This document shows positions 3,813-63,894 of a stretch of DNA of 64,000 nucleotides, one piece after another (position 1 is the stretch's first letter; every line of letters begins with the position of its first letter). Made by a program: the position numbers and the translations under genes. Under the pieces are notes generated by a model. The model saw only the letters and a program-made list of their open reading frames with translations. It was not told where the DNA came from and made no database searches. This DNA comes from Branchiostoma floridae (lineage: Eukaryota > Chordata > Leptocardii > Amphioxiformes > Branchiostomatidae). The stretch is from the NCBI RefSeq assembly GCF_000003815.2, contig NC_049983.1:14204240-14268239 (forward strand), given 5' to 3'.

Positions 3813-6800
3813 ATGGAGGCAAGGCTTCTCGTGACGGCCATCGCGGTCTCTGTCCTTTTGGAAGGTGAGTTATTCCCTGTGTTCCGGGTGAACTATACTG
3901 AAACTCCCTGACCTGGTATCCGGTAACGCACACACACACACACCTGTTACAGGGTATTGCTGATCCCTGCAGTCAAAAGTAGACAAAACACGCTGATAAC
4001 GTAACCGCTAAATGACCAAGTTCTTAATTGAGTACCACAAAATTAGATATTTAACTTTCAGGATCGACGCACTTTAAACATTGATACGTCGGTAGTTAAA
4101 TATTACCATGGTTTTTCATATGTCTGAAATCTGGCCACTTAACATGATAACATTCCGTGAATCGCAGACGTACCGGGGTATAGGACATCATAACGACTAC
4201 TAAATCACAACTGTGATTTGTATTCTAACACCATCTGAACTTGTTTGCATGCGCAGGACACCTTCTTAACTTGTTTGTAGGACGAACATCATCGTAACCA
4301 TTGATTTTGTGCTAAAATGTATCATTCGCCCCGGCACATGGTCCAGATCCAGACTCACGGGGTCTATGATCAGAAACGTACATGGGCATTTGGGTGCTCC
4401 GTAACATCCCGATATCAAATTAAGGTGTAATGTCTTGCACGTAATTACGAATATCGTTATTTCGACTGAAATGAGCCTTAAGATGTGCAACACGGACGCA
4501 ATCACGTACAGATCAGAATGGCAATAATGTATAATGTAACGATGGTAAAACAGGCTGTGCTCTCACGTGAAAAGTGGGACTGTGCTTGTGACTTTGCATT
4601 TAGTCCGTCTATCAAGCACAGCGGTCGATACTTGCGTGGACAATTTCAGAAGATAACCTTACATAACTTGATCTAATTGCATTATCTCTATCTTGCGCAG
4701 GTTGTCTTAATGTTGTAGTGTACGATTTCCTTTTGTCTAGCTACTGGAAATACCGAAGGTAAAGCCTCTTGACACCTAACTAGAACATACAGACGGAACA
4801 ACGTTTGTTGTTTTCTTTACAAATCCACTGTTTTTACAAATACATTGTTTGGTTTGGGGCTGTGCACATCAATTTGTGTAGGGCACTGTTTAACTTCTGT
4901 GGTGAAGAGAGGAGCAAATATCCATGACATCGGAAACCTGGCACGGTTACACGAAGTTTTTAACTACCCAAGGAAATACGCCATTAACAGTTGTGATCAA
5001 ATATGCTTTAAGAAATCTAATACAAGATTATGCGGTCTTTTGCGACCATATGATGGCATATCGCGTTTATAATATTGTCCCCGTTTTGTGATATATGCAT
5101 CCGATGCTAATGCACACTGCTATGTTTCAAAACCGTTTACGTGACCAATTCACTATGATAGAATGTCAGGGTACGTTTCTTCAGTCACTCTGCTGGCGGT
5201 GTGCAAAGTACAGATGTACGTACTACATCGAGACGGGATATCGATTTACCTTCTGTCGCCGCGGATAGACGGCAGGAGTCTCTACATAGCACAGTTTACA
5301 TTGTCGTAATACAACACTATCTAAACCTATCTACTTTTTTACTGTGATTGTTGAACAAATGGTGAATGTTTTACACAACCACGATTCAAGTATCAAACGA
5401 TTTGGCATCTATTCATTGTAGTTAATGTTTAAAAAAGCAGGGTCCATAAACAAATGTAGTACAAGGGCGCTACCAGAGACTGGCACAGATTTGTGCCCAC
5501 CCTGTTTTTATCCACGTACCCATATATGCACCTGCTTGCTTATTTTTAGAAGGGAAAACAATTTAGGTTGCATAGTCCATGACCTCATTTGCTCCAATTT
5601 TGTAGGATAAATTGAAGCCGAAGTATGTCCCCAAATTCAATTTCCTATCTAAATTGTATCAGCTGTGTCAGCTTTTGAGCAGCAAAGATCAGGTTATTTA
5701 TTAGTTTAACAGCAGAGTATTATGTACATCAGGACAATCATTTTGTCTTTGGTACAGGACAAGGGGCCTCTTGAAATACGAAATATGCTACTTGTACCAT
5801 AATGGTGCTTGAAGTTTCAAACATTTCTTAAGTAGCAACCTAGAGTCAGTATCTGACAACTTTTAGCGTGTAGGACGTCCAGTAAGACAACAATGAAATG
5901 AAAATGTAAAGCACATCACCAGCTTGTATCGAGGACTTTGTATGCATCTCCCTCTGCAAAACAATGTGACTTTGTTCTCTTCGCTATCGTTTCACAGGCC
6001 TTTTGGCTTGGTCATATTTCTAACTAAACACCTCAGCAACACTGAAAAATAGACACCTAGAGACACAACAGATTTCTTTTCTGTGACTAGTTGAATTAAG
6101 GACATTCGTCAAAAGACAATAAGGTAATGTAGGTCAACTTCTGGCACCCTGTGTTGGTCCTAGATCCACAACCGCGAAGCTAGCCCTGGAAAGAGATAAG
6201 TGTGTTTTGGCAACCGGGCAGATAACGTTAGATACATTGCTTTTACGCAATGTGTACCTGCTATTTCTTCATAGTTAGTGTAGCTGATAGTATCTGATAT
6301 AACTTCACTGCCTAATATTGTACTTATCATATTCTCTTCCGTAGTTTGTGGTTCTGAGATTATTCATCTTTAGACAGTGGAAAGCATTTTCATAAACTTG
6401 GATGTGAAGATATCATCATCATCAAGCTTGTTGTACTTTGTGGTTTACGCCACGCTGTTTGTATTAGAGGGTAAACCATTGATATACCAACAAGACTATT
6501 GTAATCAGAATGATTCTGGGAATAGCAAGTCTCTAGAGTCACCTTTGACCAATTCTAGAAGCTAGGAAACCATCGTGACATGGGAGCAAACAGTAGGCAT
6601 ATTGCACAGCGCAGCACATGTCTCAGTCCGACTAGCATTCTTTCCGACATGTACGTGGAATTCATCAGATGCCTTCGGTGTTGAATGAAACAATAAGAAG
6701 AACTGACATTTCTGAACAGGTGTTCTCTTCTTGGCTGCGCTACCTCAGCAGATCTTGCGACAAGATTATTTGTGGGGAAGAGGGTGCGTGTGGAGTGTAT

Positions 6801-9800
6801 GTACAAAACAGAACACCGTGTTGAGTTCGTCGGCTGCCGGAGGCAGTTTTGGGCAGAAGCTACAAACGCTTCAGTGTAAGGCTGTATGCTGTATCGAATT
6901 TCAGTTTATTTTCATGTCGTTCTTCGTTAAGGAACAACGCGTGTCAAAAATCACTTTTCACTTCGAAATCTGAGACAGGGGATGACTGCGACATTTACTA
7001 AAACAGCTACGATGAATATACCGTGTTAAAGAAGTGGAATACAAACATGTGATGCTCTGTGTCTTTGACATAAGATCACAATTCAAGTCAAGCGTTGAAC
7101 GTGTTGAATTACGTAATACGTGACTCTAAGAAAACGTATGGAACCCAAGACACTGAAATTGCATGACCTAATTCTTATAGCTAGTAGACATATATACGCC
7201 CTGCACACTCACGGTGACTGATAGCTTTCTGAAATACCATGCAGAATACACTTCACCAATGTCCTATTCGGATTTTTGCTGTGACACTATCTACATTACC
7301 AGCGATACTGTATCTATTTTTGTGTAATTGTTGAACATTTTAAAGCTATAGAGGTGAGTTTTTCATTCAAAACCAGTGTAGAATTAGATAATAGTGATGA
7401 CACAGGTGTTGAGAGTCCCTACACACACAGGTAAAATTCTATCAGTGTTAAGCCATGTGGATCAGGTCTTTCTAAATATAGACGTCTCCTTTGTGGCTAA
7501 TGCTCCGTGGAGAGTGTGCGGTTAGTTGTTTGGGTGTCAACGGAGTAGAATGGCCTGGCGTGAGAAGCTGCTAATGTCACGGGAAATGGAGACTTACACA
7601 GGCAAAGATAATTGTTATGCACTCCAGGAAAAACTTCTGAAAAGTACTTTTTTTATGAACTATAAACTTAAATTTACGAAAGGGCGACTCCACAACTTTC
7701 CAGAAAATTTCTTACATGTCCCGTCTTTATTGATAATACATGTACGAGTACTCATAGCGTGAAGTTTCCTTTTTTTAAGTTGGCAGACAGAACATATACG
7801 TTTGCAGCTATATATAGTTCCCCGAATCCTGAGGCTATGAATGAACTTAACAGCTGTACCAAAATTCTTTCAATCTTGCTAAAACCTCATTGACAGTTTG
7901 TTACGCCTATGGCCATAGTCGTGTCCAAAGGTCATACAGAGGTCGCATAACTAATGAACACTCTTATCAGGTATCCTTATCTGTAGGGAGGGGAAGAGCC
8001 GTAGATAATTGAGGTGGAGAGGATCATCAATGAAATTGATTCCGCTATTTCCAAACACTCATAAATGATTTAACTGCACGGTGACTAGGTCGAGAAAATA
8101 ATTCACTTCTTCAGTTTTTACCCAATCTTCTCTTGAGTATGGAGATTTGACTGCAGCATCCTTGACATCCTTGTCAAGTTGTCATTAGGCGAGATTTACA
8201 CACTGTTTGTCCACTGGAAACACCAACAATGTCATAAAAATCAAATCCGGCCATTACAGCCAGCAGTGTTGACCACAAAGCTGATGTTTTACAAGCACAC
8301 AAACGTGTTAATCATTAATGCGGACATTCTGGCACGCCATACCTATCACCACAGGAACATTTAATGCGGCGGGAGAGGTGTTCATACTTTATCAACTTCA
8401 TTCTCTCTGTCCCCCTTTTGATAATCAGTGACCTTGGAAAAGAAGACCATTTCAACATACATATACTATCTACTAATAACAGGGTACCTAAGCATTTGCA
8501 TGAGCCTTGTGAAATTCGTATGAATCTTATGTGATACATACGAATCATTATGTGAAAACGTACGAAGCTTATGTGATACGCACGAATCATTATGTGACAC
8601 ACACGAATCTTATGTTATACGAACCTTATGCAAACTGGCCGACCGCTACGTTGGGAGAAGGTATATTTCTGAGTGTTTCTACCCGTGATATCACGTGTCA
8701 CACAGTATTTAGTGTGTATTATATAATGTTCGTGCGTTTTCGCTTTGTGATTCTGCGGTTTTCATAAGATTCGTACGTTTTCGCATAGTGATTCGTGCGC
8801 ATCACATAGGATTCGTACGAAATTCATAAGGTTCGTGCAGATGTTGAGACTGAATAAGACTAGACCATGACTAGTGAAAACCATTTGGTGTTTCAGGTGG
8901 TTCGGTAAAGCACCAAAAGCAGTTACTGACAAGCCCGCCGGTGTTCAGAAGTAAACATTTTGACTTCTTCCCTGTGGCCTGTTTATCGTCTGAAACACAT
9001 CGTGGTGGCTAAAGAGACTCCACTGTACACAGGAGGAAGAATTCGTTTCACCAGTTTAAACTGTTTGCCTTTCTAAAACACTCTCCTATCAGGGCGTGTA
9101 AACAGAGTGCTACCCGTTTTTCTCGGCTCTGTAAGTGTTCTTTGTGCAAAGAACAACCTCAGTGGCCACTCCTGCCACAGATGTTTGCAGTAGCACAATG
9201 ACGATGTCCTTTTGCTTGTAGTTGCTGATCTCCATATTGTTTGACATTGAATAGATGGTACAAAAATGTATTTTTGACCCTTGCTAATCAGTTGGTAAAG
9301 CCCTTCCATCAATTGTACCACCCTGATATTGATCGTCCTTGGAAAAAGTATCCGAAAGTCGTAATCAGTCGCAACGTTGTCGCCATCAGTGCCAACATTA
9401 GGTTTGGGAAGGGCGTCGGCAAGACGGCCATGTCTTGTCACGGGGTGGTACCGTGATTGCCTGGACCAGAGTACAAAGTCTTTGACCAAAACGTGTTTTC
9501 CTTCCATCTCGACGATGATAGCCCCTAACGGTCAATTTCTAAACACCACAGTGGTGAACATAGACGAACGACCAACTGACTATACAATACATAACGTATT
9601 TGGGAAAATGTTTTGCCACCCGATGATGACCGATACGCAATAATATTTCACCACAGCGACTAACAAGTATTGGTACCGGAAATAACTTCTGTGATACAAG
9701 CACTATCAGCGTGTTTGGCCTATTTCTAAAGCTATCAGTACCTAAGCAGTAAAAATAGCACCGTATCATAATGTTCCAGCGACCTGCTTCCCTGCTAAGT

Positions 9801-12800
9801 GCGTGTCTGTTAGGAGCCTGCAAGTCACTGATAGTCTATGCATTTAGATAACATTTGCGTCAAGGACACTTCAATGCCAGGCAAATGACAAGAGCACTGT
9901 TGGGAGGTGGGTAATGAAGTGTCCAGTGATTAGAGACGAGGGGACTTGGCTAGCCTGTTTCTGATTCAATTAGGATCCTCAGTAGCTATCTGTACATGTT
10001 GCTAAACTCATGATCAAGGTTCCCTGATGACTGACCTAAATTCATTACCCTCAGACGGACTGGAGTAATGCAGAATTGGACGAAGGTCTGGTGCATTAGA
10101 TCTTGGATGAATGCGGATGTTCTATATTCATAGCACATAAATAGTGGTGACATCTTACAAGGTATTCTATCCACAGTGCCCTTCTATCGTCGTCCTCGGC
10201 TCACCGTTACGAAATGAATGGTTGCAGAGAGAACCTCTAAACGGTAAAAGTAATTTGTATCAGGATTTCGATGACAAGGCAATTTCACGAAATTTAGGTC
10301 AGGGTTGTTGGCGTATCGAATCTTATTGGAGTGTTTTACACTAGTAACTGCATACCTTCTGGTGTTATCATATAGGGTATGACAGATATGACTGGGGCAC
10401 TGTTGGCGATGAGAAGAGGAATTTAAAATAGAATCAATCTTGTCTCTTTGAAACATCTGCCTCCGGAAATGTGATAGGTTTAAAAATGAACGAGGAAAAG
10501 CATCCACGTCAGCTTTCCTGTATGATTTACTTTGGCTATAACCACGTCATGTATAGTGGCATTGATGTACCACACATGCATACACCACATATGTTTAGGG
10601 GAGCAATTTTTACATTATTTTCATCAATTTATCTGAAATGGCCACAGTTCACAGGAAAAAAAACAAAATAGTGTATTTTACTTGTCACAGTAACTCTGTA
10701 AACTAGAAGGCTGGTTGAAGCCTTGGAAAAATTCATATCACATGTGTGTCTCATCTTTTATCTGTAATTCTAATTTGCCATACGTTGAAGTAGATCTTAT
10801 TGCAAATTGTGGTTCCCCTACCATTGACGCATTAATGATATGACACAGAAACACGTGTCTCACTTCCAATTTCTGACTACTGCTTCCTACCATCTGGCAG
10901 GACTCCACGGTTCCCCCACTGCTGACGTACAGCACGTGCCGCGGACAGCATTTCTGGTAAAGTTAAACATCTCACGGAACGCAAACACATTAACCAAGCA
11001 AACTTTATGAATAACGGAAGGAACTATTTTCATATAAATTGACTCACAGGACAAAGATATTATTAGTACAAGCTTAATGACAGGGTTCCTTGGAAATATT
11101 AAATTGCAAAAGAAATGTTTGTCCTAGGAACCACTTAAGCTGGTCGGTAACAGAGTGGCTTTTTGTATCAATGTAGACAGGGTGGAGTGTATCATATCGC
11201 ACGTGTCGCCGGATAGCAGCAACGATGATTTCCAGGCGAAATGTTGAAGGAAACGACTCCATACGGAGCGGATCTTTACAAAAAGCAGGAAATTGGAAGT
11301 GTACATAATATGTAGAAAAGAAGAACCAAACAGGTTCAGTGTTGGCAGTAAGGAAACATTATGCCCTCAACCCCCGCACGTTCAGCACCCTTTTGAAATA
11401 CTTTGTACAGTAATTCTCTGCACTTCTCTCTCCGGTCGATTCAAGATATACCGATTGAGGTGAATGTCATCAGAATCAGTACAAAAAGACTTTATCGTCT
11501 AAGATAGGAACACCGTGTGCGTCACCTTGTTGCCCATGGACAGAAGTCAGGAAGTATTTTCTGCTTTCTCACAGACGTTTTCTGCTCTGATTACTCCAGA
11601 CAATGCCGGGATAATCTAATAATCCATTTATGTCAGGAGTCTTATGTCTTCCCTCTGGACCAGATAATCTTGTTTCGGCAAAACAGTTTCAAGACGCTTG
11701 TAGAAAACGCACGCCATCCAGGCCGATTGCGTTGTTGCAGAGGGACTGAGGTCGACGACACTATGATAAAGGCCAGTGTGATGTCTTTCCAATTTCACGT
11801 GCATTACTGGAAAGTATTTCTGCGCATGCTCAGTATATTATCAAGTAAACGTTCTGTGGAATGGAGGTAACCGGACCAATGCGCGATTGGAAAGTCACAG
11901 ACACTTGGAAATAGGGAGCTTCCATCAATGCAAGACGTGGCGCGTAATTACGTCAAACCAGAACCTGGAGGCGCCTGCAAACCTTCTGATAACGATGTTA
12001 TACTGGACCATCTGGACATGGTAGACTGATGACTAGGATGATTCAGGAATGTTAAGTTGCAGCGAAAAGCCAAGTTAATGACAACATTTGTGTCCTGGTC
12101 TTGCGTGATGTATCACAAAGTCACACAAGAGAAATCAGACAATTTTCTTGTATATGAATACAAAATGAAACAGAGAACACCCTTGTCATAGTCAACTACC
12201 CAGAACATTACATGCTGTTACAAACAGATGATGTATCAGATTTGTTATTTGAGATGACTGCGATAAATCATTGAGACATTTGTTAGTAAGCAATTCATCA
12301 GTGGAGTACTAAGGGACCTATGATAAACTGATTAAGGAAACTGGACTGGTCCAATCTAATTTTAGCCTAATAATAGATTCTAAAAAATGATACATTGACG
12401 TTCGACTCTAAATATCTATGCCAAACCTGTTTCTTATCATAAAAGGTTCAATTTTGAATTTCTTTTCTTTCAGTGTGCAGAGCGGAGTTCTGTTATAGTT
12501 ATACCCGAGTAGTGGATGGAAGCAGAGTCCGAGTTCCTGGGTTTTCCTGTCCACAGACCATAGAACGGCCAGAGGATAACCAGGACGTGTACTGCTGTGG
12601 CTCGTCCTCCAACAAGTACTGTTGCAACGACTGTAGAAAATCGCAGAACGGACAGGCATGTCTGGGGAGCGTTCTATACTCCAGTACTGTAAGGTACGGG
12701 CTAGTCCTGTTTTTACCTCCATGAAAAATGGAGGTATAGTTTTTGGTGTGTGTGTGTATCTGTGTGTGTGTGTGTGTGTGTGTGTGTCTGTGTCTGTGTC

Positions 12801-15800
12801 TGTGTCTGTGTGTTTGTGCTTCCGGATATTTGTGGTAAACATAACTTTAGAACCTCTTGATGGACTATGATGATATTTGGTATGTGGGTAGGGGTTGGGA
12901 AGACGAAGGTCAAGGTCAATTATGGGCCCCCGGTGTGTGACCTTGGTACTGCAGCAGAACTTCAATTTGTTGTATCTCTTTACCTGGACATGCTGTGGTC
13001 TTGATTTTTTGGTGGCAGACAACTTGTGATGTAAAGGTGGGCTCCCACTGCACTCGCGTCACGCTTGCGTCGCTTCGGGGTTCGACAACGCAGACGTAAC
13101 CCCGCGGCACCTAGAGGTGACGCGAGCGAACCTAGAGGTGACACAAGCAAACCTAGAGGTGACACAAGTAAGCGCGACGTTTTTTTGGAAGTTAAAAAAT
13201 AACGCAAGTGGCAAGATGCCCCAACAGTGACCCAAGAGTGACACAACAGTGACCCAAGAGTAACACAACAGTGAAACAACAGTGACGCCAACATGCCTTC
13301 AACAGTATCAAGGTTATATTTTGTCTATTTTGCACCAAGTATCAAAAGTAAACATCATTTTATTATTGAAAATCTATTTTGGATACATTTTGGATATCAT
13401 TTTACAACAGTTTTTCAGTTACAACAGTGACCCAAGAGTAACACAACAGTGACACAGTGACGCCAACATGCCTTCAACAGTATCACGATTATATTTTGTC
13501 TATTTCCTATTAAAACGTAGGAAATATCAAGATTTTTCATTTGTGAAATATGCAAATTAACACACACCATTGCACATACTTGTTGCAAAACACATAAGCG
13601 ATGGAGTCAAATATGGTATATGATTCGTGTCCATTCATTTGGGTTACTTCTTTTACTGTAAAAGTCTTTCAAGGTTATCATATAACATATAAGTAACATT
13701 CATAAGGATAAGCATCATCACAAGGGAAATTATTTCATTATAAATCTCATTTTTAGGCATTTTCATCATTTTACAGTGATTTTTCATACATTGACAACGC
13801 TGCGACAACCTGTCAATTTAGTCTAGAAACGCAACAGTGACGCATGTCAGTGGGAGCGCAACAGAAAATCGGCGAAAATAACACAACAGTGACACAATGA
13901 ACGAACCCCGAAGCGACGCAAGCGTGACGCGAGTGCAGTGGGAACCCACCTTAAGGAAGAAGTGATTATTTGGGCCTCTAGCAGCTTGCAGGCGAGTTTT
14001 TGTCAAAATCTTCCAAAGAAAAAGAGCATAACAGAACATAGGAATGATGGATTTCCATGATATGTGGTGTGCAGGTACAAGTGACAGAGATGTACATGGT
14101 GAAGTGTAAATCATGCAAATTTCGACTTAATTTGCATACTTAAAGAGGAAAATCTATATTTGAAGTGTTTTCTAATATAGGACTCAAATGCATGTAACAT
14201 GTAGATTGTGGCAGGTGAAAGATAATCAGATTCTAATTATGCAAATAAGTACCTAATTTGAATAATTAATGTGAAAGTGTCATAATTCTTCTTAGTGTAT
14301 GTAGTAACTGACTGGGCTGTCAACATTGTGACATGTCTAAGTTAGTGAAAAGTGAACATAAGCAAGCAGACATTATACAGATGTGAAAGTCATTTGCATA
14401 ATCAGAATATTTCATGAATGTATGAGGTCTCCGAGCTCTTCTTATATATGAAGGGAGGGGAAGACAGAACATTTTCACCTTTTATTCTATTGTTGACGTT
14501 TTTTTCAATTCAATTCTTAAATTTGGGGTACTCTTGAATATTTTCAGCATTGTAGGCTTTAAGAAATAATTCCGCCAATATCTGGTAAAAAAACATCTTT
14601 TCAAACCACTTCTGCAAAAAAGACGCATGGAAACGGCTGCCATTCGTGTTTCAATACTCCATTCCGTGTACCCATATAAACACAAAGGGTATTTACCCAC
14701 TAATTGGTACTTAAGCCCGTGTATGATACAGCCTTTCCGATGTCCTTGATCACAGATTGGTACCACTCTTCGGGAATGACGTCATTGTCGCCAATCAGTT
14801 GTGTCCTTCAACGGTGACTGCTGATTGGCTGAAAATTTCTGTGATAAAATGTCGCCTTTGATTGTACCGAGGCTTTAACAAATCAAATAAGCTTAACAAA
14901 TCAAATAAGCTGACTTCCCTCTCAACCCCTTCAATGTTACAACTTACAAGGTTGAATTTTGCCATTCACGTTCAAAGTTCTGAAAGCCCAGACCTTTTGC
15001 CCATTTGCAATCCGCAATGCATCCATCCTCGTATACCGTGTTGGGAAAAGACTAGCAAATGGATTTTCCTATGCAATACATGATTAAAGCATGCAAAACA
15101 ATCACTTAAAAACATGCTAAAAAGCGACAAGCTACTTTTCAATCGAATTTCCCACACAATATGAATCATGAAACTGCGGGATAGTTGAGACAGTATCTGC
15201 AGATTTCCATGGGTACGTTGTGATTTTTTTCACTTATGCTTTGGTCACAATTCCAAAACCTGGGCCCGGCCAGGTTGCTTTCAAGAACGAAATATCAAAT
15301 TATATAAGACCTCAAAACACTTAGAACATGAAAATATCATTCATGAAGATAAACTATTTTTCTTTTCCGTACACATTCCGGCCGGGCCCCGGTTTGGAAA
15401 TGTACCCGTAGCATAACGGTGACAGTTATGTTATCATCGCCCTTCGCGATCCTGTCCAGAATTTGAATTGTTGTACTGACAAAGCTTTTAGGTCTGAAAT
15501 ATCTCAGAAAGTCTTTATGCGGATGGCACGTACCATAGCTCTCCACCCATTTCTGTCGTGTGGTCTCGCACGTTTATATCCACACAGCCAAAGGTTCAGA
15601 TCTGGACCCGCCTATGTTGACAATACCTCGCTTCGCCTGGCCCCTTTTAACCACAACAGTAGTTCAAATAGGACACGCTGAGGATTGTGTTACAAGAGGA
15701 AGGCAAAAACTTAAGATTCCGTTCTCAAGTAGCTGAAAGAATCTCTAAGAACGCCAAAAGTTTCTTTGTTTTCTGTTTGAAAGATGTTTGCTGCTTGATG

Positions 15801-18800
15801 ACAAATGGATCACTTCTGGTAGTTGATGCTCCTAACTTTGATGCGTCGCCCTTCCCTTCTCCCCTCAAACTTTAGACTTTACCCGTTAATCTTAACCAGA
15901 CGTAACCTATTGGGTACCGCAAGATAACAGCGATATATGCAACCACAGCATGGGTATTATATTAACATGACTTACATTGTTTTGTAAGAACATCCACCTT
16001 AGTGTGTTTTGCAGCCAGGTGCATAATCATGGAACAGACAAGAGGGAGAGGGGAGGGGGGCATTTGTTACCACGGCGTATAGGTACAGTATGATGGTGTA
16101 TTTTTTCTGTTCAAAACATTGAATCTCATTGTTTTGAGCCATTGCAGAGCGTAACAACTTTAACATGTCTGCGTATATGAGTGTGCAAGGTGTACAAAGA
16201 TCAGAAAAAACCGGCTACTCTATAGGGCAGAGGTGAACATTACCTGTTGATAGTAAGTGTGATAAAGGATCAAATATTAACATCACTTAGCAGCAATGTG
16301 TGATGCAAGATTAAGTCGAGTTTTGGAAACACAGTATTATGGATAAACAATCATACATAGTTATATTGGCTCTTTTACTATTCATAGTCGCAATAAATTT
16401 GCCAACAGCCCGTTTTGTGTTAGGCTGAAGCTTATAGAACACTCCGAAAGTTTGAATCCCTTAAGCTCGTGGTCGCATTGTGAAGCCTTATCGCCATGGG
16501 ATGCATATGATAAATCATTTGGGGTCATCACAGTGCCATTTAAACGGATTAGAACAATCGGACATACAGTAAAAACCAGGTCAAGAGGACTGGCCCCCTT
16601 CGGGTGTTAGTACCCCCGAGATTGTATATCTAAGTCCATTGAGGCTTGTTTACTCGTTACATACACGAAACCAAGTCAACATCCCTCCCATCCCTCTCAG
16701 CTGAACCCTACAGAAGGGACAGACCGTTTTACACCACGACCAGGGACGTTTTGCCAAAGTCTCAGGTGACAGCTTGACGTTAGCGACAGTAATGAATATG
16801 TCAGGGGATGATGTTGATGATGATGATGATGATGAAGACTGGTTTATTCAACAAGTACCTCATGGCAGCCGTATTAATTTTCCTTCTTTTACAATAAGAA
16901 TATTATGCTATACAAATTAACAAGCTGGTTTGAACTCAAATCTAATATACTATCTAATAATACACATTATTTAACAAGGTCACCATATAGTAAACTGGGC
17001 TCAGCTCTGCAATCTTGGAGAATAGGCGATTCTGCCGATTTGAAGTCGCTTCCTTAAAAGACAGTCAAAACTCTTTTGCTTTGATTCCTGAGACTTTATC
17101 TATGGATTGACAACAAATTTGGATTGCGAGACCTCCTGAACACTTTCCTACAGTCTCAGTCGATGGAAACTCCGATCGGAATCTCCGCTTCTGCCAGATC
17201 GCAATCTCAACACTGAGATATACATCATTTTGTGGTTATCTGCGGGAGAGAAAAGCTTGCATATCGGTGGCGCCAGACTCATCTTTTATAATGGTCCTCG
17301 CGCGCTCAGACAGTTACAGATAACTGGGCAGATTCGTGACTTGGATAAAAAAATGTCAGACAATTCATCAAAACCCGAAGCAGCTCACCTTTAACCTCTA
17401 CGGCGACTTGTCTCCACGGGTTTAGCATCAATGCTCTACGCTCAGATAAACCAGGGGTTCGCGCATTCCGATCGGAACGAAATCGATTCTGTTCACCCTA
17501 AGACGGTTTTCTCATACTGAACTCAGGCTCTGCGTCAATCCAATGAATTATTAGATAGGTGTACAGACAGCCAACGCCAAAAGGCTTGCTTGTTAGTGCT
17601 GCTTTAAGACACTCAAGGGACCCGCCCAACTCAGGCTTAAGTCTAACGGTGTATAAAAACACCTGTCGCTATTTCATGGACTGTTGTGACTGTGACTTTG
17701 ATGAGGTTCCCTCTCTTTTTTTTCCAGTGTCGGTGCAATAATAGGCATCACCATGGGCTCCACGTTTATCGGCCTGGGCTGCATATATTTCGGTTGTTGC
17801 ATGTTCTACACCCTGTTTCCACGTAAAACTGCTGTCGGCAGCAGACTTGGGAGCTTCCAACAAAGTAAGTCTTTTTTTATACATAATGATATTGGCTGGT
17901 TTTAACGATAATTTTTTCACATACGTTGGCATGACTTCATCTCCAACGATTCTAGCCGCATTACAACAAAACTGGCACCAATTAGTCCCAGAATTGCCAA
18001 ACAACCGCTGACCTTCTTAGGACATGCGTCCAGAGCACGCCCCACGCAAGAGGTGATCAAACTGACAACGTCTGATCCTGATCCATCATGGAAGCGCCCT
18101 AGAGGCCGTCCAAGAGGGAGATGAGAAGATCAGGTTTTCAACACACTCCAGGAGCTGGGGGTCTCTAGATCCGACTGGACTGTCTACGCCAAGTGCAGAA
18201 CAACGTGGCGAGAACTATCTGAACTGTCTGTAGCCTACACGCATCAACAAATAATGCACGCGACTGATTGATTGATTGATTGGTTGATTGATTTCTTAAC
18301 TTGGTACATTACGTCTAATTTTCTTGACACATGGAATGGTACCGTTGTTTCTGGGAAAAATCCACCCGCCACTATTTACCAAAAGATTAACAAGTCTACG
18401 TTATGCAGGCAGTAGTCCCTAACTGATGATGCGAATCCGCAATTCCATTCGAGCATTTTAAATCTAACATACAAAATAGGCAAACTTTTTCTAATATCAG
18501 TACTTTACAGTAAAGGTACATGTACATGACATCAAAGAAGTCAATGACCTCAACAGTAATTTGATGCTCTTCCTGTAGTTAAAAGCACATTCTATCCAGG
18601 TCCAAATAAGCTGAAAGTTGTGGCACTCTGATGCCTACTTTAATACTGTGACATGTGACACCCCACGGATCGCAGTCTGTACTGATGATCCTCGCAATCC
18701 GATATTGGAAACGTCTCATCCGGTTCAACGGACAGTAGCCCGGTGGAGGTCAAGGACATAGTACTTGGGCTGGACTATGATATGTTGAGACCGATCCGTT

Positions 18801-40360: not shown

Positions 40361-40462
40361 ATGTTGAAGAAATGCCTGTTTTAACAGGTATACAAATGTT
40401 TGGCATGGATTGAACAGGTCCGTTCATCTCAACATCACAACGGCGACTACACTGGCCAGAAG

Positions 40463-40491
40463 GCATTTTGCGACTGCAAGTCGCAAAATGC
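40463..40491. repeat. Perfect 13-bp hairpin
   Basis: gcattttgcgact / agtcgcaaaatgc surround a 3-base loop (gca), next to a dispersed repeat. Confidence 0.8.
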
Positions 40492-40504
40492 AAAAACTGC
40501 TATG

Positions 40505-45557: not shown

Positions 45558-45563
45558 AATAAA
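45558..45563 (+). promoter_or_regulatory. Candidate polyadenylation signal of the kinase gene (AATAAA)
   Basis: An AATAAA about 600 bases after the kinase stop codon. Confidence 0.4.
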
Positions 45564-46651: not shown

Positions 46652-46657
46652 TTTATT
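46652..46657 (-). promoter_or_regulatory. Candidate polyadenylation signal of SL6 (AATAAA on minus)
   Basis: TTTATT on the plus strand, about 105 bases past the SL6 stop codon. Confidence 0.5.
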
Positions 46658-46762
46658 TGGTACTCTTGTGTAATGCAGGCTAGGGTGGTTTGCATGTCAT
46701 GTTCCTGGTATGGGGGTATTAAAATTTGCATCCGAATCGAAATTTGTGGTGATAAAATGATT

Positions 46763-49700: not shown

Positions 49701-49849
49701 TGGCGCAGATTTTGACAAGGAAACTTCCTCTTCTTAGTGTGAGTCAGAGCCTTTGTACCATTACAAAGTGGTTTTCTTCCTATGTACGAAGATTGCTAAT
49801 TACCTGTCGCGAAAATGGCGACGACGACAACAAGTGTTTCCCGCAACAT
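46763..49849 (-). CDS. SL6: Shisa-like membrane protein with PYPPAGA repeats, 4 exons, 220 aa
   Basis: Exons in transcript order: 49849-49804, 48766-48565, 47437-47301 and 47040-46763 (663 nt, phases 1-2-1). The signal peptide is MLRETLVVVVAIFAT. The Cys domain starts VVAGEQCRAFG and has FSCP, IYCC, DCC, DDC and SSC; it is acidic between Cys2 and Cys3. The transmembrane exon begins GIGAMVG (helix about 85-108) and ends LCCCACA. Its donor is GC rather than GT (CAAG|gcaagt), giving a GC-AG intron; no in-phase GT fits. The tail has a PPAY motif followed by heptads APYPPAG/APYPQGG and ends PQKA. Intron 2 carries the dispersed repeat at 47757-48540. The Cys domain is closest to SL8 and SL10. Confidence 0.87.
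46790..46935 (-). repeat. 21-bp tandem repeats in the SL6 tail exon
   Basis: About six in-frame 21-base units encode APYPPAG or APYPQGG heptads. The codon-level similarity of neighbouring units suggests recent expansion. Confidence 0.75.
47757..48540 (+). repeat. Dispersed repeat copy 2, without the nested insertion
   Basis: It aligns with 12714-14455 minus the 917-bp element there, and gives the empty target site (gatgtaagaaagaagtgat). It lies in SL6 intron 2, antisense to the gene. No coding capacity. Confidence 0.75.
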
Positions 49850-50619: not shown

Positions 50620-52704
50620 CTAAATCTTTGAAGTGTGGCCGAAAGCTACATATGCATCCTGTGGATACTGTGGGTAGGCAGGCTGTTGTGCGGGGTACTG
50701 GGCGTTCTGTTGTGGATCACGTGACTGCGGGTAGGCAGGCTGGCGTTCAGGGTACTGGGCGGCCTGGTGTGGAGACGGGGTAGGCTGGGTGGTAGGAGTC
50801 ATCTGTACTGCTGTAAAGATATACGGATGCATTTCTATGATACAGCAGCATGAAAACAGAATTACCTGAATCAAAATGTGGAGTAAAGAACTGCTGAACT
50901 ACTTTAAAACAATTTGGGTGAGCGTCTTCACTCAAATAGAAGTCGACGACCGTTACTCGACCATTGCTAAATCAGAGACACTTGAGCTAAGCCTAGACAC
51001 TTCTTCCTATCTCCCCCGGTAGCTATAGACTTACCATTAGTTTGCTCTTTCTTGCTGTTCTTCCTTGCCTTTCCGTAACAGCACACGATGGCACCAACGA
51101 TGATGACGGTAAGGGTAATGGCTGCTACTACTATTCCAACGATGGCGCCCGTACTGACGATAAAAAAAGGCGGGAAATAAATATTCTACGACCCAGTATT
51201 CTACGACATCACTGTCGCATCTAGCGGTATTAATTACAGTTGCATAGAAATTACCTTCTTACAAACACTTCACTATCGAACGTCTAGTCTCATTATCTCC
51301 GAGCAGATGTATGGGGTCCGGCTTGTTTTTCATTCGGCATGATCAGGACTGTTTTGTGACATGGTATATTTTGATACTGCGTTCATTCGGTGGTTTATAC
51401 ATGGCGTGACGTTCTATGGCATCCAACAAATACTATAACCTACCTCATATTGAAAATGCTGCCGACCTTCCAGGCGCCTGCTGTCATACAATGGTCGGGT
51501 TTGCTGACGGTAGATCGGCAGGGATCCGAACAGCATTTCCTCCCGCAGCAGTAGATGTCGTCCGGGTTGAAGCTGTAGACCCGGGATCGGGGACAGCTGA
51601 AAGGTCGGCCGTGTGCAGTGCGACAGACCTGTGCGGCATCTGTGTGTGCGTTCGGTTGAGAAAACATAATTGGAATGTGTGTAGTGCTTTATTCTTTAAG
51701 ACTATGACTAAGACTATATATATGTATGTATGTATGTATGAAGGTATCTACTTTCATAGACATGGTAGATGGGTAGCAGTATAACACCGGCTGGGCAACA
51801 CTCAAAATGTCAACTTGTGACGGGGACTTATCATTAATATAAAAATCATGCTGTCTTGTATGTGGGTGTGTATCATCGGTCTGTGTACAGAGAAGGGGAT
51901 TTGCGGATCCTTTGATGTAAACAAATCGTATCCAACGAGCAAGGTCATATTTTCCATTATCATGTGCAGAATAAGTACACTTTCTAATCATATGATATTC
52001 CCTGAAATAATCTGATCTAACCAAAAGTGAAAACTGTTCTACACGTAAGTATGATTCTACGCGTACACTGTCATGTCAACGTTTCATACACAAAGGTACG
52101 GTTTTATCAATAGATAATGAACTTGTTCTGCAACTTTTCAACAATGCCCCCCTCCCCACCAGTCACTGGCATGATGATTCACGACGCAGAGGCATGCCGG
52201 GATTTCTCGAACCCGTCGGAGACTCTGCACATTTGATTTTGCCGTTCAGCATACTTCCCAGAAACAACTGGTCACAGTGTCCTTGCATTCTAAATTCAAG
52301 ATCAGCTAAACGCTGTTCAATACAAATGTACAAAAGGTTACTAGTTGTTTGTTCCCCTGTCACTTCAAAGGTTCTTCAAAGGTTCGTAAACCAGCCTGTC
52401 AATGTCTACTATTAATAAGGATTGTGTCTACGGTCTACTGGTCCTAAAATAAGCAGTTTGTTGGTAAAATTCAGTAAATACCAAAGTTCCACCGGTTGTC
52501 AGTACATAAACAGCTAGGAAGAGGAAGATAATTTGAAGCAAAAAGCTCTAACTTGACTGTCATCGTTGTGGCGTAATCCTATGCCCATGATTTCCGGGTG
52601 TACTTGCGATTGACTTTTGTCATGATGGTGCTGTACATACTCGTACACTTACCTATCGTCCAGACAGCGCCCAACAGGGCTACCAGCACAATCCGCAATA
52701 TCAT
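50620..52704 (-). CDS. SL7: Shisa-like membrane protein, 4 exons, 185 aa
   Basis: Exons in transcript order: 52704-52653, 51639-51444, 51153-51035 and 50810-50620 (558 nt, phases 1-2-1). The signal peptide is MILRIVLVALLGAVWTI. The Cys domain (QVCRTAHGRPFSCP, IYCC, KCC, DPC, HC) has three residues (SDP) between the second CC and the next Cys, where the others have two. The transmembrane exon begins STGAIVG (about 85-108), has only two juxtamembrane Cys and then a basic stretch (KARKNSKK), unlike the poly-Cys paralogs. The tail keeps QPAYPQ repeats but has no true PPxY, and ends HTSKI, which fits a class I PDZ ligand (Ser at -2, Ile at 0). It may have exchanged WW docking for PDZ docking; that is inference. 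Confidence 0.86.
51720..51740 (+). repeat. (TATG)n microsatellite
   Basis: A short run of tatgtatg units in SL7 intron 1. Confidence 0.8.
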
Positions 52705-54049: not shown

Positions 54050-57000
54050 CTAAACCTTGGGTGGGTAGGCTGGGTTCTGGGGGTAGGCTGGGGGTTGTCC
54101 ATCCGGGTACTGCGGGTAGGCAGGAGGCTGTGCAGGGGGGTACTGGGGATACTGACCCGGTGGGTACTGCACTGGCTGGGCAGCAGGAGCCATTTGGACA
54201 GCTGTGGGGCAAAAGTAATGCCATCTTGTTATGCCACAAGAATGACCCAAATGAAATTACAATACATGATGGAGACTAAGGTAGGCAATACAAGAAAGTA
54301 TTCACGAACACTATGTTTTCAGATAATTGCAATGTAGAAAGCATTGAAAGAGGGGGAAGCATGTCTTACATTTGGGCGAGATGTCATGTATGCTAGATAA
54401 TACATTTCAGAGAACGTACGTTTTCAAATGGAGCATTACCTCTAACATGCATGATGCAAAACTGCCTCCCATAGAAAAATGCTTTATCCCTAGCCCCTTG
54501 CGTTGAGATGACAAGCTGTGAGGGCCCACTATGGCTAACCCGTAATAAGCCATATCGTGAACCTGAATGTGTGGAGCTCTTACCCTGTGGTTGGTTTCTC
54601 TGGCTGGACCCCTTGGCGCATGCGCAGCAGCAGAGGACACACGCCACAATGACGATGATGATCAAGACGATGCATCCCACAATTATGCCGATGATGGCGC
54701 CGATACTGTTACGACATAGGACATGTTTCAGGTTATGAGTTCTTCACTATGAAAAGCACTTTCCGTGTCATAATAAAACTCCTCAGAAAATGACAACAGT
54801 GTTAGAAATCCTGTATGAGACGAATTCTGAGCTCTTAATTCGTCAACATTTCGAACATGTAACTCATCATGTATCACAAGGTAACAAATTACAATTGGAT
54901 AAAATTTGGAAAAGGTCAGATCTTTCAGACAGCAACGTAACGTCTGACCGTTTCCAAATTTTATCAAGATAATTGAGAAACTATTACCTTGCATATCGAA
55001 TTATCTGGATATCTAACCTTAAAATCAGATTTGCTTGTTTGTTTGTATATTTGTGGGTCAGCCATCACCAGCTTATATAGCCTGCCTAGGCTGGCCCAGT
55101 GTAATGATTTATTGTCATTTTCAATAAATAAAAAACTAACCTTCATCGACCTTCCTCATGTATCTCTCACATACATGATTTTTGCGAAATGAAAATGTAC
55201 CCGAATACTACCACTGCAGTACCAAGGCGAGCCGCTAGATGGCGCAACAGAGCCCGGTTTTTGTCACACCCCATCAACACACCAAGTCTGAAACCAATTC
55301 ACCCAGTCGCTCTTGAGTTATCTTATTGACACACACACAGATGCTAGTGGAAACATAACCTCTATAGATATTTCATGGAGGTTATAACATTTTGGAACAC
55401 AACATGCAAAACTCCGGAAGCACCGGTAGGAGGCACTGCAGACATGTGCAGTGTGCAGAGGACAACACTTTGGCCAGTTTGGGAAAGACGACAAGGGACA
55501 AGAAGAAGTGTCTAGGTAAATATTGCAAGTGCTTGTCTTGCTCGTCTATTGTACTGCCTCCTTCCGTTAATTGTTGTACAGTCAAACCTGCCCAAGACGA
55601 CCACCCGGGGGACCGGAAAAAAGCGGTCGATTTGGACAGGTGGTCGCTGAGAAGAGTATCGACTCAAAACATGCTCGATGCAAAGTATAAATGGTTGCCG
55701 TTGTTTAATGGCAAATAGCAAGCACACTGCACGCACGCAAAGAAGCGAGGTCTTTAATATCAAATACAACACTCACACTGTAAACTGTAAATTTAACCCC
55801 AAAATCCGACGCAAACTGGCCGATTTCGGCACAAAATCGCGCTAATTATCATCAAAAATCGATGAAAACCTCAATCTTGAAAATGATGCGGTCGTTATAG
55901 GTCCCAATTTGGGCCGGTCGCGGTCGCGTTGGCCAGGTGGTCGTTGAGAAAAGGTCGCTTAATGCTTACGTCAATGGGAAAATAAATCGGGACCGAGAAA
56001 AAGCGGTCGAAATGGCCAGGTGGTCGCTGAGAAGAGGTGGTCGGGCAGGTTTGACTGTAATTGATTGTGTGAAATATACAAATTGGCAAAAATTACCCGA
56101 GTCGCAGTGCACTGCTGACGGCGTTGCCCCAGTGATCAGAACAAGATGAGGTGTCATCACCGTCCCAGCAGTCGTCACAACAGTCAGTTCCACTTTTACA
56201 GCAGTAGATGTCGTCATTATCATCAATGCCGTACGGCCGCGGGCAGGAGAATGTGGTGATACCGCCATAAGTCCGACATTGCTCTCCAGCAACAACTGTA
56301 CACCAATAAAGAAACAACGTTACGTAGTAAACTTTTCAGCAATACTAAGGAATCCCTTTGTCCTTTCCCCCTCATCTGTATGCATCTTCATATATCTATA
56401 TATCTATATCTAAATTTTATATCTGTACATCTATCTATGTATATAGATCTGGGACTACGAACAGTGACTTGTTGGGGTCTATTTCTACTATGAAAATCAT
56501 TTGCATTTGGCACTGAAACCACAAGGTGTTATGTTGTACTGTTTACCCCTGGGTTGTTTTACCGTACATAACATTCCAGGGTGAAAGTCTTGGACTGAAA
56601 CCCGTTCTGCAACTTTTGTCTGACGCCCCCACTTTACAAAGGACACGAGGACTCTAAACTATTGTTTAGTGACCTTTATGTAGGAATTAGCTGTGCCAGG
56701 TTGAGACAGCACGTCTTTATGTGTGTTGTATATGCATAGGGAACATATTATTAAATATAGAAACCGGGAGATTCCAAAAAATCCCTATCGACCAGAGAGT
56801 TTGTCCATTCTGTCCAGAGTTAATTGAAGACGAATATCACTTTATGATTGTATGTCCCAAATATTCTGAAATACGCAATTCTCTATACAGAAGGTTGTCA
56901 TTTTACACAAGGATTTATCTCAATGGACCTGAAGTGCAAATTCAAATACATCATGACATGTGACAATCCCTGCATGGCAGATATAGGAAAATATATCAAA

Positions 57001-57785
57001 GAAGGTTTGGATATTAGAAACTCCTCAACTGATTGTAAAAGCTTCCAATGATTGTAAGAAGCTTATCCCATACTACAACTCCTGTATTAGTTAGTTAAGC
57101 TATAGAACTGTAGTTATGTAGATGCCATACTTTGTACCTCGTACAATTGTTGTGCAATAAAGTTATCTTTCTTTTATTATTTCGGTACGTAGGTCCACCT
57201 CAGTGACTTCTACTCTTAACAAATTTAAACATTCACATCAACAGCAAATACTGGGATTCAAAATATGCTTAAAAGAATTTAAAGCCGTGATGAAGCTTGT
57301 CCAATTTTTGTAGGTTGTATGTACCTGGGAGCTACATGTACATGAATATTACAAGGAATGGGCTTGTTACCAGCTCGAAGATTAATCTCAGCACCAAAGA
57401 AAACATTGTTGTCATTGAGGATTCGTTCAGAAATGTCTTGCCTGCTTTTAACAATAGGACCAACGTTGTGATTATGACTTCCTCCGAAATGTTTCCTTGT
57501 AATTGTTGACACGTCTATACTTCTGTTCGAGATGTATCGATCGCGACCTAGCGATATCTTCACGAAATCCTGACACTAACACTGTACTGGCATCTTGATA
57601 ACATGCCAAAATAACTCGGTCCTTTTTACACATTTCACGGTTGGCGGAGATTCATTTACTGATATTTTCCTTTCCACACCCAGTCGATCTATGACTACTT
57701 GGTAAGCGTCACGTATGCCTGTTGACTACTTACCTGTTGTCCAGATAGTGACCAACAAAACTAAACTGACGGCAATCCGGCCCAT
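54050..57785 (-). CDS. SL8: Shisa-like membrane protein with two PPAY motifs, 4 exons, 174 aa
   Basis: Exons in transcript order: 57785-57734, 56295-56097, 54705-54584 and 54201-54050 (525 nt, phases 1-2-1). The signal peptide is MGRIAVSLVLLVTIWTT. The Cys domain starts VVAGEQCRTYGG and has FSCP, IYCC, DCC, DDC and SSC. The helix (about 86-109) begins GIGAIIG and ends LCCCACA. The tail is QYPPGQYPQYPP-rich with two PPAY motifs and ends PPKV. Exons 1, 3 and 4 are almost identical to SL9: the tail differs at one residue and the transmembrane exon by a Pro-Gln pair. The Cys exon instead matches SL6 and SL10, with 54 identical residues against SL6 in a hand alignment. The gene is thus a mosaic, and intron 2 contains a transposon. 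Confidence 0.88.
55196..55385. repeat. Dispersed repeat fragment ending in 'tttcatggagg'
   Basis: It shares 'gtaccaagg.gagccgct', 'gtcacaccccat', 'cttgagttat', an AC tract and the terminal 'acctctatagatatttcatg' with copies at 40505-40880 and 45340-45480. It lies in SL8 intron 2. Confidence 0.5.
55578..56058. mobile_element. DNA transposon remnant with 16-bp TIRs in SL8 intron 2
   Basis: ACAGTCAAACCTGCCC at 55578-55593 is perfectly inverted at 56043-56058. Subterminal direct repeats 'aggtggtcgctgagaag' occur at both ends, and a related one near 55935. The aligned SL10 intron lacks the element. There is no coding capacity. A possible imperfect 8-9 bp target duplication (aattgttg/attgattg) is ambiguous. 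Confidence 0.7.
56746..57176 (+). mobile_element. LINE 3' fragment with C-terminal CCHC motif, frameshifted
   Basis: The plus frame reads IETGRFQKIPIDQ, then CPFC and EDEYHFMIVCP: a Cys-Cys-His-Cys motif seen at the end of many non-LTR reverse transcriptase ORFs. A frameshift near 56930 moves the rest (KFKYIMTCDNPCMADIGKYI) to another frame. A 3' region with AATAAA follows. The paralogous SL9 intron lacks it (continuous near 61223), so it inserted after the duplication or was lost from unit B. Confidence 0.7.
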
Positions 57786-59167: not shown

Positions 59168-61815
59168 CTAAACCTTGGGTGGGTAGGCTGGATTCTGGGG
59201 GTAGGCTGGGGGTTGTCCACCCGGGTACTGCGGGTAGGCAGGAGGCTGTGCAGGGGGGTACTGGGGATACTGACCCGGTGGATACTGCACGGGCTGGGCA
59301 GCAGGAGCCATTTGGACAGCTGTGGGGCAAAAGTAATGCCATATTGTTATGCCACAAGAATGACCCAAATGAAATCACAATAAGGTAGGCAATACAAGAA
59401 AGGATTTACGAACACAATGTTTTAAGCATTACAATTAAATGTAGAAAGCATTGAAAGATATCTAGAGGGGGGGGAGCATGTCTTACATTTGGGCGAGATG
59501 TCATGTACGCTAGATAATACATTTCAGAGAAAGTACGTTCTCAAATGGAACATCACCCCTAATAACATGCATTATGTACAACTGTCTCCCATAGGACATG
59601 TAAAAAATCCCCAGCCCCTTGCGTTGAGATGACAAGCTGTGAGGGCCCACTTTGGCTAACCCGTAATAAGCCATATCATGAACCTGAATGTGTGGAGCTT
59701 ACCCTGTGGCTGTGGTTGGTTTCTCTGGCTGGACCCCTTGGCGCATGCGCAGCAGCAGAGGACACACGCCACAATGACGATGATGATCAAGACGATACAT
59801 CCCACAATTATGCCGATGATGGCGCCGATACTGTTACGACATAGGATAATTACGTTTCAGGTTATGAGTTCCTCACTATGGAAAACAATTTCCCTGTCAT
59901 AATAAAATTCCCCAGAACCAATAGTATTCAATTAAAATGACAACAGTACTAGCAATCCTGTATGACACGAATTCTGAGCTCTTCATTCGTCTAAATGTTA
60001 AACATCATCATTTAACTCATCAGGTATCGTAAGCTAACAACGGGATAAAATTTGGAAACGGTCTGACCTTTCAGACAGCAACGTCTGACCGTTTCTAAAT
60101 TGTGTAACAGATACATTGCGTATATCATTACCTAGATGTCTACCCTTCTTTCTTGTATTGCTAATAACGTAATTGAATTTTTTGGCAAAGTAAAAAAGTA
60201 CCCGAGTCGAACGGCTTTGCCAAAGGCGTCACCCACGTCACCGATGTTGACCCCGGTACAGGTGGAGGTGTCCACGATGGATTTCCAACAGTTGTCACAG
60301 CACTTGTTCCCCTCGCAGCAGTATTTCTCATCGGAATCGTCAAAAGACGGAAACGGGCGTGGGCAGTTGAAACTGGTGAAGCCAGACCCACATCGCTGTC
60401 CAGCATGGACTGATGAGAAGAGAAGAAAGTGTTATCAGAGTATGGTTAAGATAAGAGAGTTAGATTCATTATCATGTACATCAGTCTCTCTACCTCAGTG
60501 AACAATTGTACATACATATACATCCAACATCCAACTCTTTTCCACCCCTTTTCCCAATTTATTGTTCCATATACTTTCAATCTCTCAATCTCACCTTACA
60601 AGTGTTGGATTTATGCCACCTACCGACGGGTTCTAAAACAACACATTCAAAGCGGACAAGCTAACAAATTCCGAAAGTATTGATCATTTCCGCGAAACGA
60701 TTCTACAACAGTATGATATCGTGTAGCACATTATAAGTATAAGGATATCAGAGTAAACAAATATATCTAGGCATTGGTATACACAAAAGATTTCGTTGCA
60801 TATAATTAATATAACATGAACTGTGAACGTACATAGAGGATGACATCAAAATGTAATGGGCTACGAACAGCGATTTGTTGCGTTCTGATTTTACTGTAAA
60901 ATCATTTTTGAAAATTGGCATTCAAACCACCAGATTTTAAGCCTAACCGTCCATGTCTATGCTTCTCTTGAATGTCTTATTTTGACAGATTTCTAACATA
61001 TGTTGTACTGTTTACACCTGGGTTGTCTTACAGTATAGAACATTCCAGGTGATGACACACATTAAAGTCTTGAAGAAACCCGTTCTACAACTTTTGTCTG
61101 ACGCCCCACCTAGTAAAGGACGCGAAGACTGTAAACTTTTGTTTAGTCACCTTTATGTAGGAATTATCTGTACCAGACTCGAGACTTCACGTCTTTATGT
61201 GTCGTGTTTGCATAAGGAAATGTTATTTCGGTACGTAGGTCCACCTCATTGACTAGTACTTTTTACTTAATTACTCATTCAAATTAATGGCAAATACTGG
61301 AATACAAAAATATGCTGAAATTCTTTAAAGCTGTGGCGAATGTTGTCCATTTATGTAGGTTGTAGACGTGCATGTGAGCTACATGTACATTGATATTACA
61401 AATAAATTGGCTTGTTACCAGCTAGAAGATTAATCTAAGCACTAAAGAAAACGAGGATTCGTTCAGAAATGTCTTGTCGGCTTTCATTACAATGGGACCA
61501 ACGTTCTGATTACGACTTCCTCCGAAATGTCCCCTTGTAACTTAACTGTTAACGTGTCTATAGTTCTGCTAGGGGTGTATCGAACGGCAGACTAGCGATA
61601 TCTTCATGAAATCCTGACACTAACACTGTACATGGTATCTAACTAACATTCCAAAATAACTCGGTCATCTTTACACTGTTCACAGTTGGAGGAGATTCAT
61701 TTATTTTCCTTTCCACACCCAGTTGATCTGTGACAACTTACACGTATATGCACTTTATACACTTACCTGTTGTCCAGATAGTGACCAACAAAACTAAAAC
61801 GGCAATCCGGCACAT
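59168..61815 (-). CDS. SL9: Shisa-like membrane protein with two PPAY motifs, 4 exons, 178 aa
   Basis: Exons in transcript order: 61815-61767, 60409-60202, 59830-59703 and 59319-59168 (537 nt, phases 1-2-1). The signal peptide is MCRIAVLVLLVTIWTT. The Cys domain starts VHAGQRCGSGFTSFNCP, continues KYCC, KCC, DNC and STC, and is the most divergent of the SL6/8/9/10 group, with a longer segment after the last Cys (TGVNIGDVGDAFGKAVRLG). The helix begins GIGAIIG (about 88-111). Transmembrane and tail exons are near-identical to SL8, with one Pro-Gln repeat more (NQPQPQ). It is the tandem duplicate of SL8, including promoter and intron 1. Confidence 0.88.
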
Positions 61816-62669: not shown

Positions 62670-63894
62670 CTATATCTTGGCCGCCGCGTATCCCCCGTCC
62701 TGTGGATAGGCTGGATCTGACAGTGGAGGGTACGGGCCCGCAGTCTGGGGGTATGCAGGAGGGGGGTACTGTCCACCTGCAGGGGGGTACTGACCACCTG
62801 GAGGGGGGTACTGCCCGGCCGGATGAGCCACTGGGACCATCTGCTGACCTAAAACACAAGGGATGACATTCAACAGAACAATCCTTTCTGATCCATTTGG
62901 GAACCATATACTGGACCATCTGCACATTGCATTACATTCCTTGCAACCAAGGAGCTTTGATGAAAGCTCCTATTGAAAGCTTGTTGCAACGTACATCACT
63001 TGTGAGAACTTGAGACGGTCTCACCCCAGATGTAACATTAGTAAACACGTTAGACGTATATGACTTATACATAGTAATTCAGAATAATAAAAGTTGCTTT
63101 TTTGCTGTACATTTTTTAAATCTAAATCACATTGTTGTAAATTTCGGAGATAACTTTGAGTGTATTTGTTGTTTGAATTATTTCTACCTTGTGCTCTCGG
63201 GCGACTTTGCTGCTTGCTCATGTAGATGCAGCAGCACACACAGGCCACGATGATGATGACTATACCGACTATAACGGCCACCGCGATGCCGATTATGGCA
63301 CCGATGCTAAGAAAAGTATATCAAATGAGTCCATGTTAAGCAAACAAACGAACAAGCAAACACAGAGCAAATATATCGTCTTTGTGTTATTAATATGTTA
63401 TAATTCATACAGTTTGCCCGACCGCAAATATACCTTTGCTATACCTTACTTAGTAAACCCTGGTCATTTTTGATGGCATTAATAACATCGATTGATTGAG
63501 TACTCGTAATTGAATGATGAAACAACCTGATAGACCACTACATGAAGAACTAGGAAGCACCGCTAGGACGCATTGCAGACACAGGCAGCAGTGTGTATGG
63601 ATAGGACAGAACTTTGTGAAAAGGAAAAATGTATAAACATTGCTTGTGCTTCCTTCTTCCGTAAATTGCTCATTGTATGATATATAGATATTGGAAAATA
63701 CCCGAGTTGCAGCGCCTTGCCGGCGACATTGCCCCAGTGGCCGGTACAAGCCGAGGTGTCGACATCAGACTCCCAACAGTCGTCACAACAGTCATTATCA
63801 CAGCAGTAGATGTCGTCATTGTCGTCAATCAACGGCCTTGGGCAGTTGAATGTGGTGAGCCCCCCAAAAGCCCGACATTGCTCTCCAGCAACAA
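62670..63894 (-). CDS. SL10: Shisa-like membrane protein, 5' end beyond the window
   Basis: Visible exons in transcript order: 63894-63702 (Cys domain), 63306-63188 (transmembrane) and 62848-62670 (tail). The signal-peptide exon must lie past 64000. The Cys domain starts VVAGEQCRAFGG and has FNCP, IYCC, DCC, DDC and SAC, with a shortened loop between the CC pairs. The transmembrane exon begins GIGAIIG, ends VCCCIYMSKQQ. The tail has QYPPPGG repeats, a PPAY (YPPPAYPQ) and ends AAAKI. Phases fit the array plan. Its Cys exon and adjoining intron sequence closely match SL8, which marks it as the likely donor type for the SL8 mosaic. Confidence 0.85.

Follow-up and report, generated by a model that had tools for sequence, protein, structure and literature searches.

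The 64,000-nucleotide window of the Branchiostoma floridae genome analysed here (C5:14204240-14268239) very probably holds an ordinary array of nine Shisa-like/STMC6 genes, whose exon layout was inherited and in which a Cys segment of the g9 kind was moved into gene g7 by gene conversion. Genes g7 and g8 form a tandem duplicate pair, and the Cys exon of g7, together with its flanking intron, is of the g9 kind.

A motif scan, a Cys-exon profile and splice-aware models identify g1 and g2 on the forward strand and g3-g9 on the reverse strand (Table 1), the exon junctions being based on splice consensus, open frame and conservation among paralogs. The models bear out a tandem set of paralogs in which the signal, Cys, TM and tail modules are encoded by different exons, but the ten genes of the original prediction are reduced to nine: the Cys profile gives nine strong matches in the window (E 1.3e-14 or better), and the next best has an E-value of 0.13. 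The g1 signal exon starts at position 3813, and the g9 Cys exon, on the reverse strand, at 63894. As judged by sequence, a hydrophobic, ATG-started signal-peptide exon ending in phase 1 is present within the window for eight of the nine genes, the candidate for g9, outside the window, also ends in phase 1, and every gene has a single hydrophobic TM exon. Scanning both strands of the window, with thresholds chosen after these exons had been seen, yields eight signal exons, which correspond one-to-one to the eight genes whose 5' end lies inside. Altogether, the window contains nine Cys regions, nine TM exons, nine tails and one lone TM-like ORF, and neither the profile scan nor the gene models reveal a spare Cys, TM or tail exon in it. 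The lone ORF displays a Cys-rich inner edge and splice phases like those of the family. A tenth gene at 35.5 kb was rejected because no Cys, signal or tail exon was found near this ORF; a run of N at 36172-36271 could hide one of its exons. Our own profile finds no further strong Cys or TM match in the 60 kb to the left and 80 kb to the right of the window, and it missed a Shisa_N match 20 kb to the left (C5:14183886) that Pfam detects. An unrelated, intronless and uninterrupted frame of 905 codons is located between g4 and g5 (42240-44957, + strand); it is receptor-kinase-like, with matches to cadherin, EGF/Ig-like and tyrosine-kinase domains. The donor that precedes the tail in g5, at its TM exon, is GC rather than GT. 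Titles on Shisa and amphioxus, Shisa and Branchiostoma floridae, or exon shuffling in amphioxus include none on this array, most subscription papers lying outside that search, and a text search of a zebrafish Shisa paper (PMC10531659) gives no match for amphioxus.

Table 1. Exon coordinates of the nine Shisa-like genes and other features, numbered from the first base of the window
Feature	Span	Strand	Signal exon	Cys exon(s)	TM exon	Tail exon	Length (aa)	Remarks
g1	3813-19982	+	3813-3864	12474-12693	17728-17864	19639-19982	250	Shisa_N 28.2 bits
g2	21872-25675	+	21872-21926	24263-24464	24866-24996	25377-25675	228	Shisa_N 15.7 bits
g3	27260-29580	-	29535-29580	28585-28736; second, 28287-28324	27840-27961	27260-27489	195	phases 1-0-2-1; Shisa_N 37.1 bits
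g4	30590-33171	-	33123-33171	32103-32260; second, 31826-31866	31496-31602	30590-30975	246	phases 1-0-2-1; Shisa_N 35.1 bits
TM-like ORF	35486-35734	-						possible relic or diverged gene, outside the gene count; profile E 0.0018
g5	46763-49849	-	49804-49849	48565-48766	47301-47437	46763-47040	220	
g6	50620-52704	-	52653-52704	51444-51639	51035-51153	50620-50810	185	
g7	54050-57785	-	57734-57785	56097-56295	54584-54705	54050-54201	174	mosaic
g9-like tract in g7	55369-56381	-						holds the g7 Cys exon; borders within 56452-56381 (upstream) and 55369-54989 (downstream), ~71 and 380 bp wide
Repeat in g7 intron 2	55577-56059	-						dispersed, MITE-like, ~485 bp; short terminal inverted repeats, probable TA target duplication (ends read by eye)
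g8	59168-61815	-	61767-61815	60202-60409	59703-59830	59168-59319	178	tandem duplicate of g7 outside the Cys segment
g9	62670-63894	-	64515-64470 (candidate, beyond the window)	63702-63894	63188-63306	62670-62848		

The proposed Shisa/STMC6 identity is confirmed in part by profile searches of the predicted proteins. With the Pfam Shisa_N profile (PF13908, cut-off 22 bits), g1, g3 and g4 score above the cut-off, but g2 falls below it and g5-g9 have no Shisa_N match; the latter five are tied to the others by comparison of their Cys profile with that of g1-g4 (hhalign probability 96.2, E 2.5e-9). Eight extracellular Cys residues are invariant in all nine genes, STMC6 proteins having six conserved Cys in an N-terminal domain, and the loops between them are variable, as had been predicted. 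The array resembles Shisa and Shisa-like proteins, and STMC6 more widely, in combining a signal peptide, a Cys-rich outer domain, one helix and a Pro-rich tail, with PY motifs in seven of the nine genes. The sequence evidence thus supports a lineage-specific tandem set of Shisa-like/STMC6 genes. Pei and Grishin are said to have named STMC6 in 2012 and reportedly noted a large Shisa-like expansion in Branchiostoma floridae; to the family description the present work adds the genomic layout, exact gene models, the split Cys exon of g3 and g4 and the mosaic g7. Solved structures provided no relative, with two chance-level matches (E 0.29 and 0.98), and an NCBIfam search gave nothing of use. The AlphaFold2 model of the g5 Cys exon, built from nine alignment rows, had a pLDDT of 54.6, too low for a fold search.

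Across the genome (513,431,437 bases in 431 contigs), Shisa_N matches at least 15 places, at least 11 of them above the cut-off, these counts being lower bounds; one control genome also gave a signal, below the cut-off. Four of the 15 places correspond to g1, g3, g4 and C5:14183886, 20 kb left of the window. Another, C3:20455736, exceeds the cut-off only together with its neighbours, and its frame is without the double-Cys pattern. Queries with the Cys exons of g9, g3 and g8 add, among others, g2, g5-g8, C1:12260410 and a third exon on the unplaced contig C233. This contig carries at least three Shisa-like Cys exons (134249-151087; L002, L003, L035), of which the one at 150.9 kb resembles those of g5-g9. 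The possibility that C233 is a second haplotype of the array was rejected: 80 of its 321 kb give only short matches of 67-86%, and it is therefore regarded as a separate small cluster.

The 1-2-1 intron phases originally predicted for all genes are found in seven of the nine, namely g1, g2, g5, g6, g7, g8 and, by the two introns that lie in the window (2-1), g9. They are not found in g3 and g4, where an extra phase-0 intron interrupts the Cys region and leaves a short second Cys exon of 38 and 41 bases, respectively, backed by the g3/g4 alignment and by splice sites. Since the Cys exons of g3 and g4 end in phase 0, it does not hold that any Cys exon fits any gene. Elsewhere the Cys exon is entered in phase 1 and left in phase 2, an asymmetric arrangement in which skipping the exon breaks the frame. 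Borders read by eye show the same in five relatives that lie outside the array (three on C233, C9:10977221 and C5:14183886). Because these relatives share the 1-to-2 Cys exon, common descent accounts for the phases in the array, whose layout is most simply inherited from a common ancestor. Two Shisa_N genes on C13 (L007, L009) differ from the array in that a single open frame runs through Cys and TM, uninterrupted by an intron. Neither the five outside relatives nor the C13 pair lend support to reading the matched phases as the sign of a special modular arrangement.

The evidence for exchange comes from g7 and g8, which occupy adjacent units of ~5 and ~4 kb (58253-53181 and 62279-58424). Alignment of the two units extends from the 5' flank across the signal exon and a large part of intron 1 (substitution identity 0.85-0.87, with 0.79 in the last block); it resumes inside intron 2 and continues over TM, tail and 3' flank (0.86). 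In the middle segment the Cys exon alone aligns, at an identity of 0.71; a stretch of intron 1 at ~57177-56752 in g7 likewise fails to align with g8. The Cys segment of g7 aligns with g9 at 0.82, intron included on both sides. When exons are masked, three colinear blocks of intron in this segment match g9 (E 2e-11, 2e-10 and 4e-7), and the introns give no match to g8, g5 or g6 (best E 5.6, 0.13 and 1.6, respectively); the best of 200 shuffled controls reached 26.8 bits versus the 55.4 bits observed. This match is visible only with the ~485-bp repeat of g7 intron 2 left out, for which the genome has 1504 candidate places; 40 were scored, and the 39 others are 96-98% identical.

Synonymous sites display the same mosaic. 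Between g7 and g8, Ks is 0.09 in the signal exon, 0.04 in TM and 0.09 in the tail, but 1.20 in the Cys exon, whereas between g7 and g9 it is 0.43 in the Cys exon, 1.44 in TM and 1.49 in the tail (g1 and g2 are excluded from the Ks tables). For g7-g8, 25.0 of 41.8 synonymous sites differ in the Cys exon, compared with 5.0 of 77.0 elsewhere (p=4e-10). The direction is reversed for g7-g9 (13.0/39.8 versus 38.4/59.7, p=0.002) and for g7-g5 (15.7/42.5 versus 49.2/78.0, p=0.008), and no clear discord between Cys exon and the remainder is observed for g8-g9 (p=0.54), g8-g5 (p=1) or g5-g9 (p=0.15). In g3 and g4 (27260-33171, - strand), the Cys exons are less alike at synonymous sites than the rest (27.8/39.7 versus 44.8/91.8, p=0.036), which may be another, fainter trace of conversion. 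The Cys exons of g5, g7 and g9, the closest to one another, have Ka/Ks of ~0.16-0.37, which indicates overall constraint and not diversifying selection; in the other pairs, saturation prevents a judgement.

Trees of the Cys exon reject a g7+g8 clade only modestly and give no clean g7+g9 clade. Among 105 topologies for g5-g9 and one C233 gene, g7+g8 is 10.4 lnL worse (p-AU 0.025, p-SH 0.11), g7+g9 10.3 (p-AU 0.18), g5+g7+g9 9.7 (p-AU 0.053) and g5+g7 4.7 (p-AU 0.07); with eight genes (g3-g9 and one C233 gene), the p-AU of the g7+g8 clade is 0.06. With g5-g9 and the C233 gene, the TM+tail tree joins g7 to g8, the best rival sister, g5, being 18.6 lnL worse. The tail-only tree of g3-g9 rejected g7+g8 (p-AU 0.011) by just 1.25 lnL, an effect of g6 being placed between g7 and g8 on branches of almost no length. 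If the Cys exon is considered by itself, g5 (83.5%) is no farther from g7 than g9 is (76-78%). Since the Cys-exon trees are weak as well, identification of the donor as g9-like rests on the introns.

Exon-limited gene conversion occurs in tandem gene families. A single non-allelic conversion, or a double crossover, would place a g9-like Cys segment into a g8-like gene, g7, and the reading frame is kept because the borders of the exchange sit in introns at matching positions. Since the discord involves g7, and g8 agrees with both g5 and g9, g7 is the likely recipient. Thus, the idea that a Cys exon can move between genes is upheld by one such event, in the intron match to g9 as well as at synonymous sites. 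The event is of the same type as known cases, with a one-exon segment exchanged and borders in introns, and represents a new instance in a Shisa-like family.

The same final mosaic would be left if g7 were a former sister of g9 whose flanks (promoter, signal, TM, tail) had been overwritten by g8, or if it had been built by crossovers in two introns. Consistent with repeated conversion, the TM-to-tail stretch of g7 and g8 (94-97% identity in exons) is more alike than the 5' intron or the 3' flank. However, this history requires either a pair of events or a single one that left the core intact, and the g7/g8 homology spans the whole adjacent unit with both flanks, so that we consider it distinctly unlikely. 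Still less probable, and very improbable in our estimate, is that no exchange took place and that g7 and g8 were duplicated whole, the Cys exon of g8 then diverging very fast under selection. Cys exons do differ most among the paralogs, and so small an exon gives noisy trees. Nevertheless, selection on the protein fails as an explanation because the synonymous sites of the Cys exon diverge too, as do the introns; moreover, the g7 introns match g9, and in its distance from g5 and g9 the Cys exon of g8 does not stand out from the other g8 modules. A receptor repertoire made by joining exons of neighbouring genes in RNA (read-through, trans-splicing) or in somatic cells is extremely unlikely: seven genes share one orientation and most Cys exons have phases 1 and 2, which would keep cross-gene splices in frame, but each gene has its own signal exon, one-to-one, no spare exons exist in the window, and the phases of g3 and g4 do not fit. 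Unlike exon arrays of the Dscam/protocadherin kind, which provide several alternative exons per constant part, the array has nine each of Cys regions, TM exons and tails, which speaks against the combinatorial repertoire originally proposed. Its diversity looks evolutionary, arising by duplication and at least one conversion, and not somatic.

Each gene would encode a type I single-pass protein. In it, a signal peptide is followed by an outer domain, small and disulfide-rich, with eight conserved Cys, then by one helix whose inner edge is Cys-rich, and by a cytoplasmic tail. Most tails are Tyr-Pro repeats. The PY tail of the Shisa/STMC6 description, a common but not obligatory feature of STMC6 proteins, is recovered in seven of the nine genes, with three PPxY motifs in g2, two each in g7 and g8 and one each in g3, g4, g5 and g9, but not in g1 and g6, whose tails contain none. 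The C-terminus of g1 is ESAV, which we take to fit a class I PDZ ligand. STMC6 proteins are regarded as membrane adaptors. By analogy, these proteins would use the outer domain to bind a partner membrane protein of the secretory or endolysosomal path and would recruit, through the tail, WW-domain ubiquitin ligases of the NEDD4 kind, perhaps also ALG-2-type adaptors, with the partner being trafficked or degraded as a result. According to PMC11399591, CYYR1 and WBP1L/OPAL1 are single-pass proteins with PPxY tails, proposed to bring WWP1/NEDD4-type ligases to membrane cargo; SHISA5/Scotin, according to PMC5037681, has a Cys-rich luminal domain and a Pro-rich tail that binds ALG-2. By sequence, the array shares the single-pass layout of CYYR1, WBP1L/OPAL1 and other PPxY-bearing STMC6 adaptors and, except in g1 and g6, their PPxY tail, and its Tyr-Pro motifs are like those bound by ALG-2, but with varying spacing.

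Matching intron phases by themselves reflect inheritance and are no evidence for a swapping system. What had been a guess at exon exchange has become a single tested case with mapped borders. It is unlikely that the array is a hot spot of recurrent gene conversion by which outer Cys exons are joined again and again to different tails; if this were true, binding specificity and downstream signal would follow separate evolutionary paths, possibly with differences between haplotypes in living populations. The array is thus a ready locus for asking whether the ectodomain and the tail of an adaptor evolve as separate modules.
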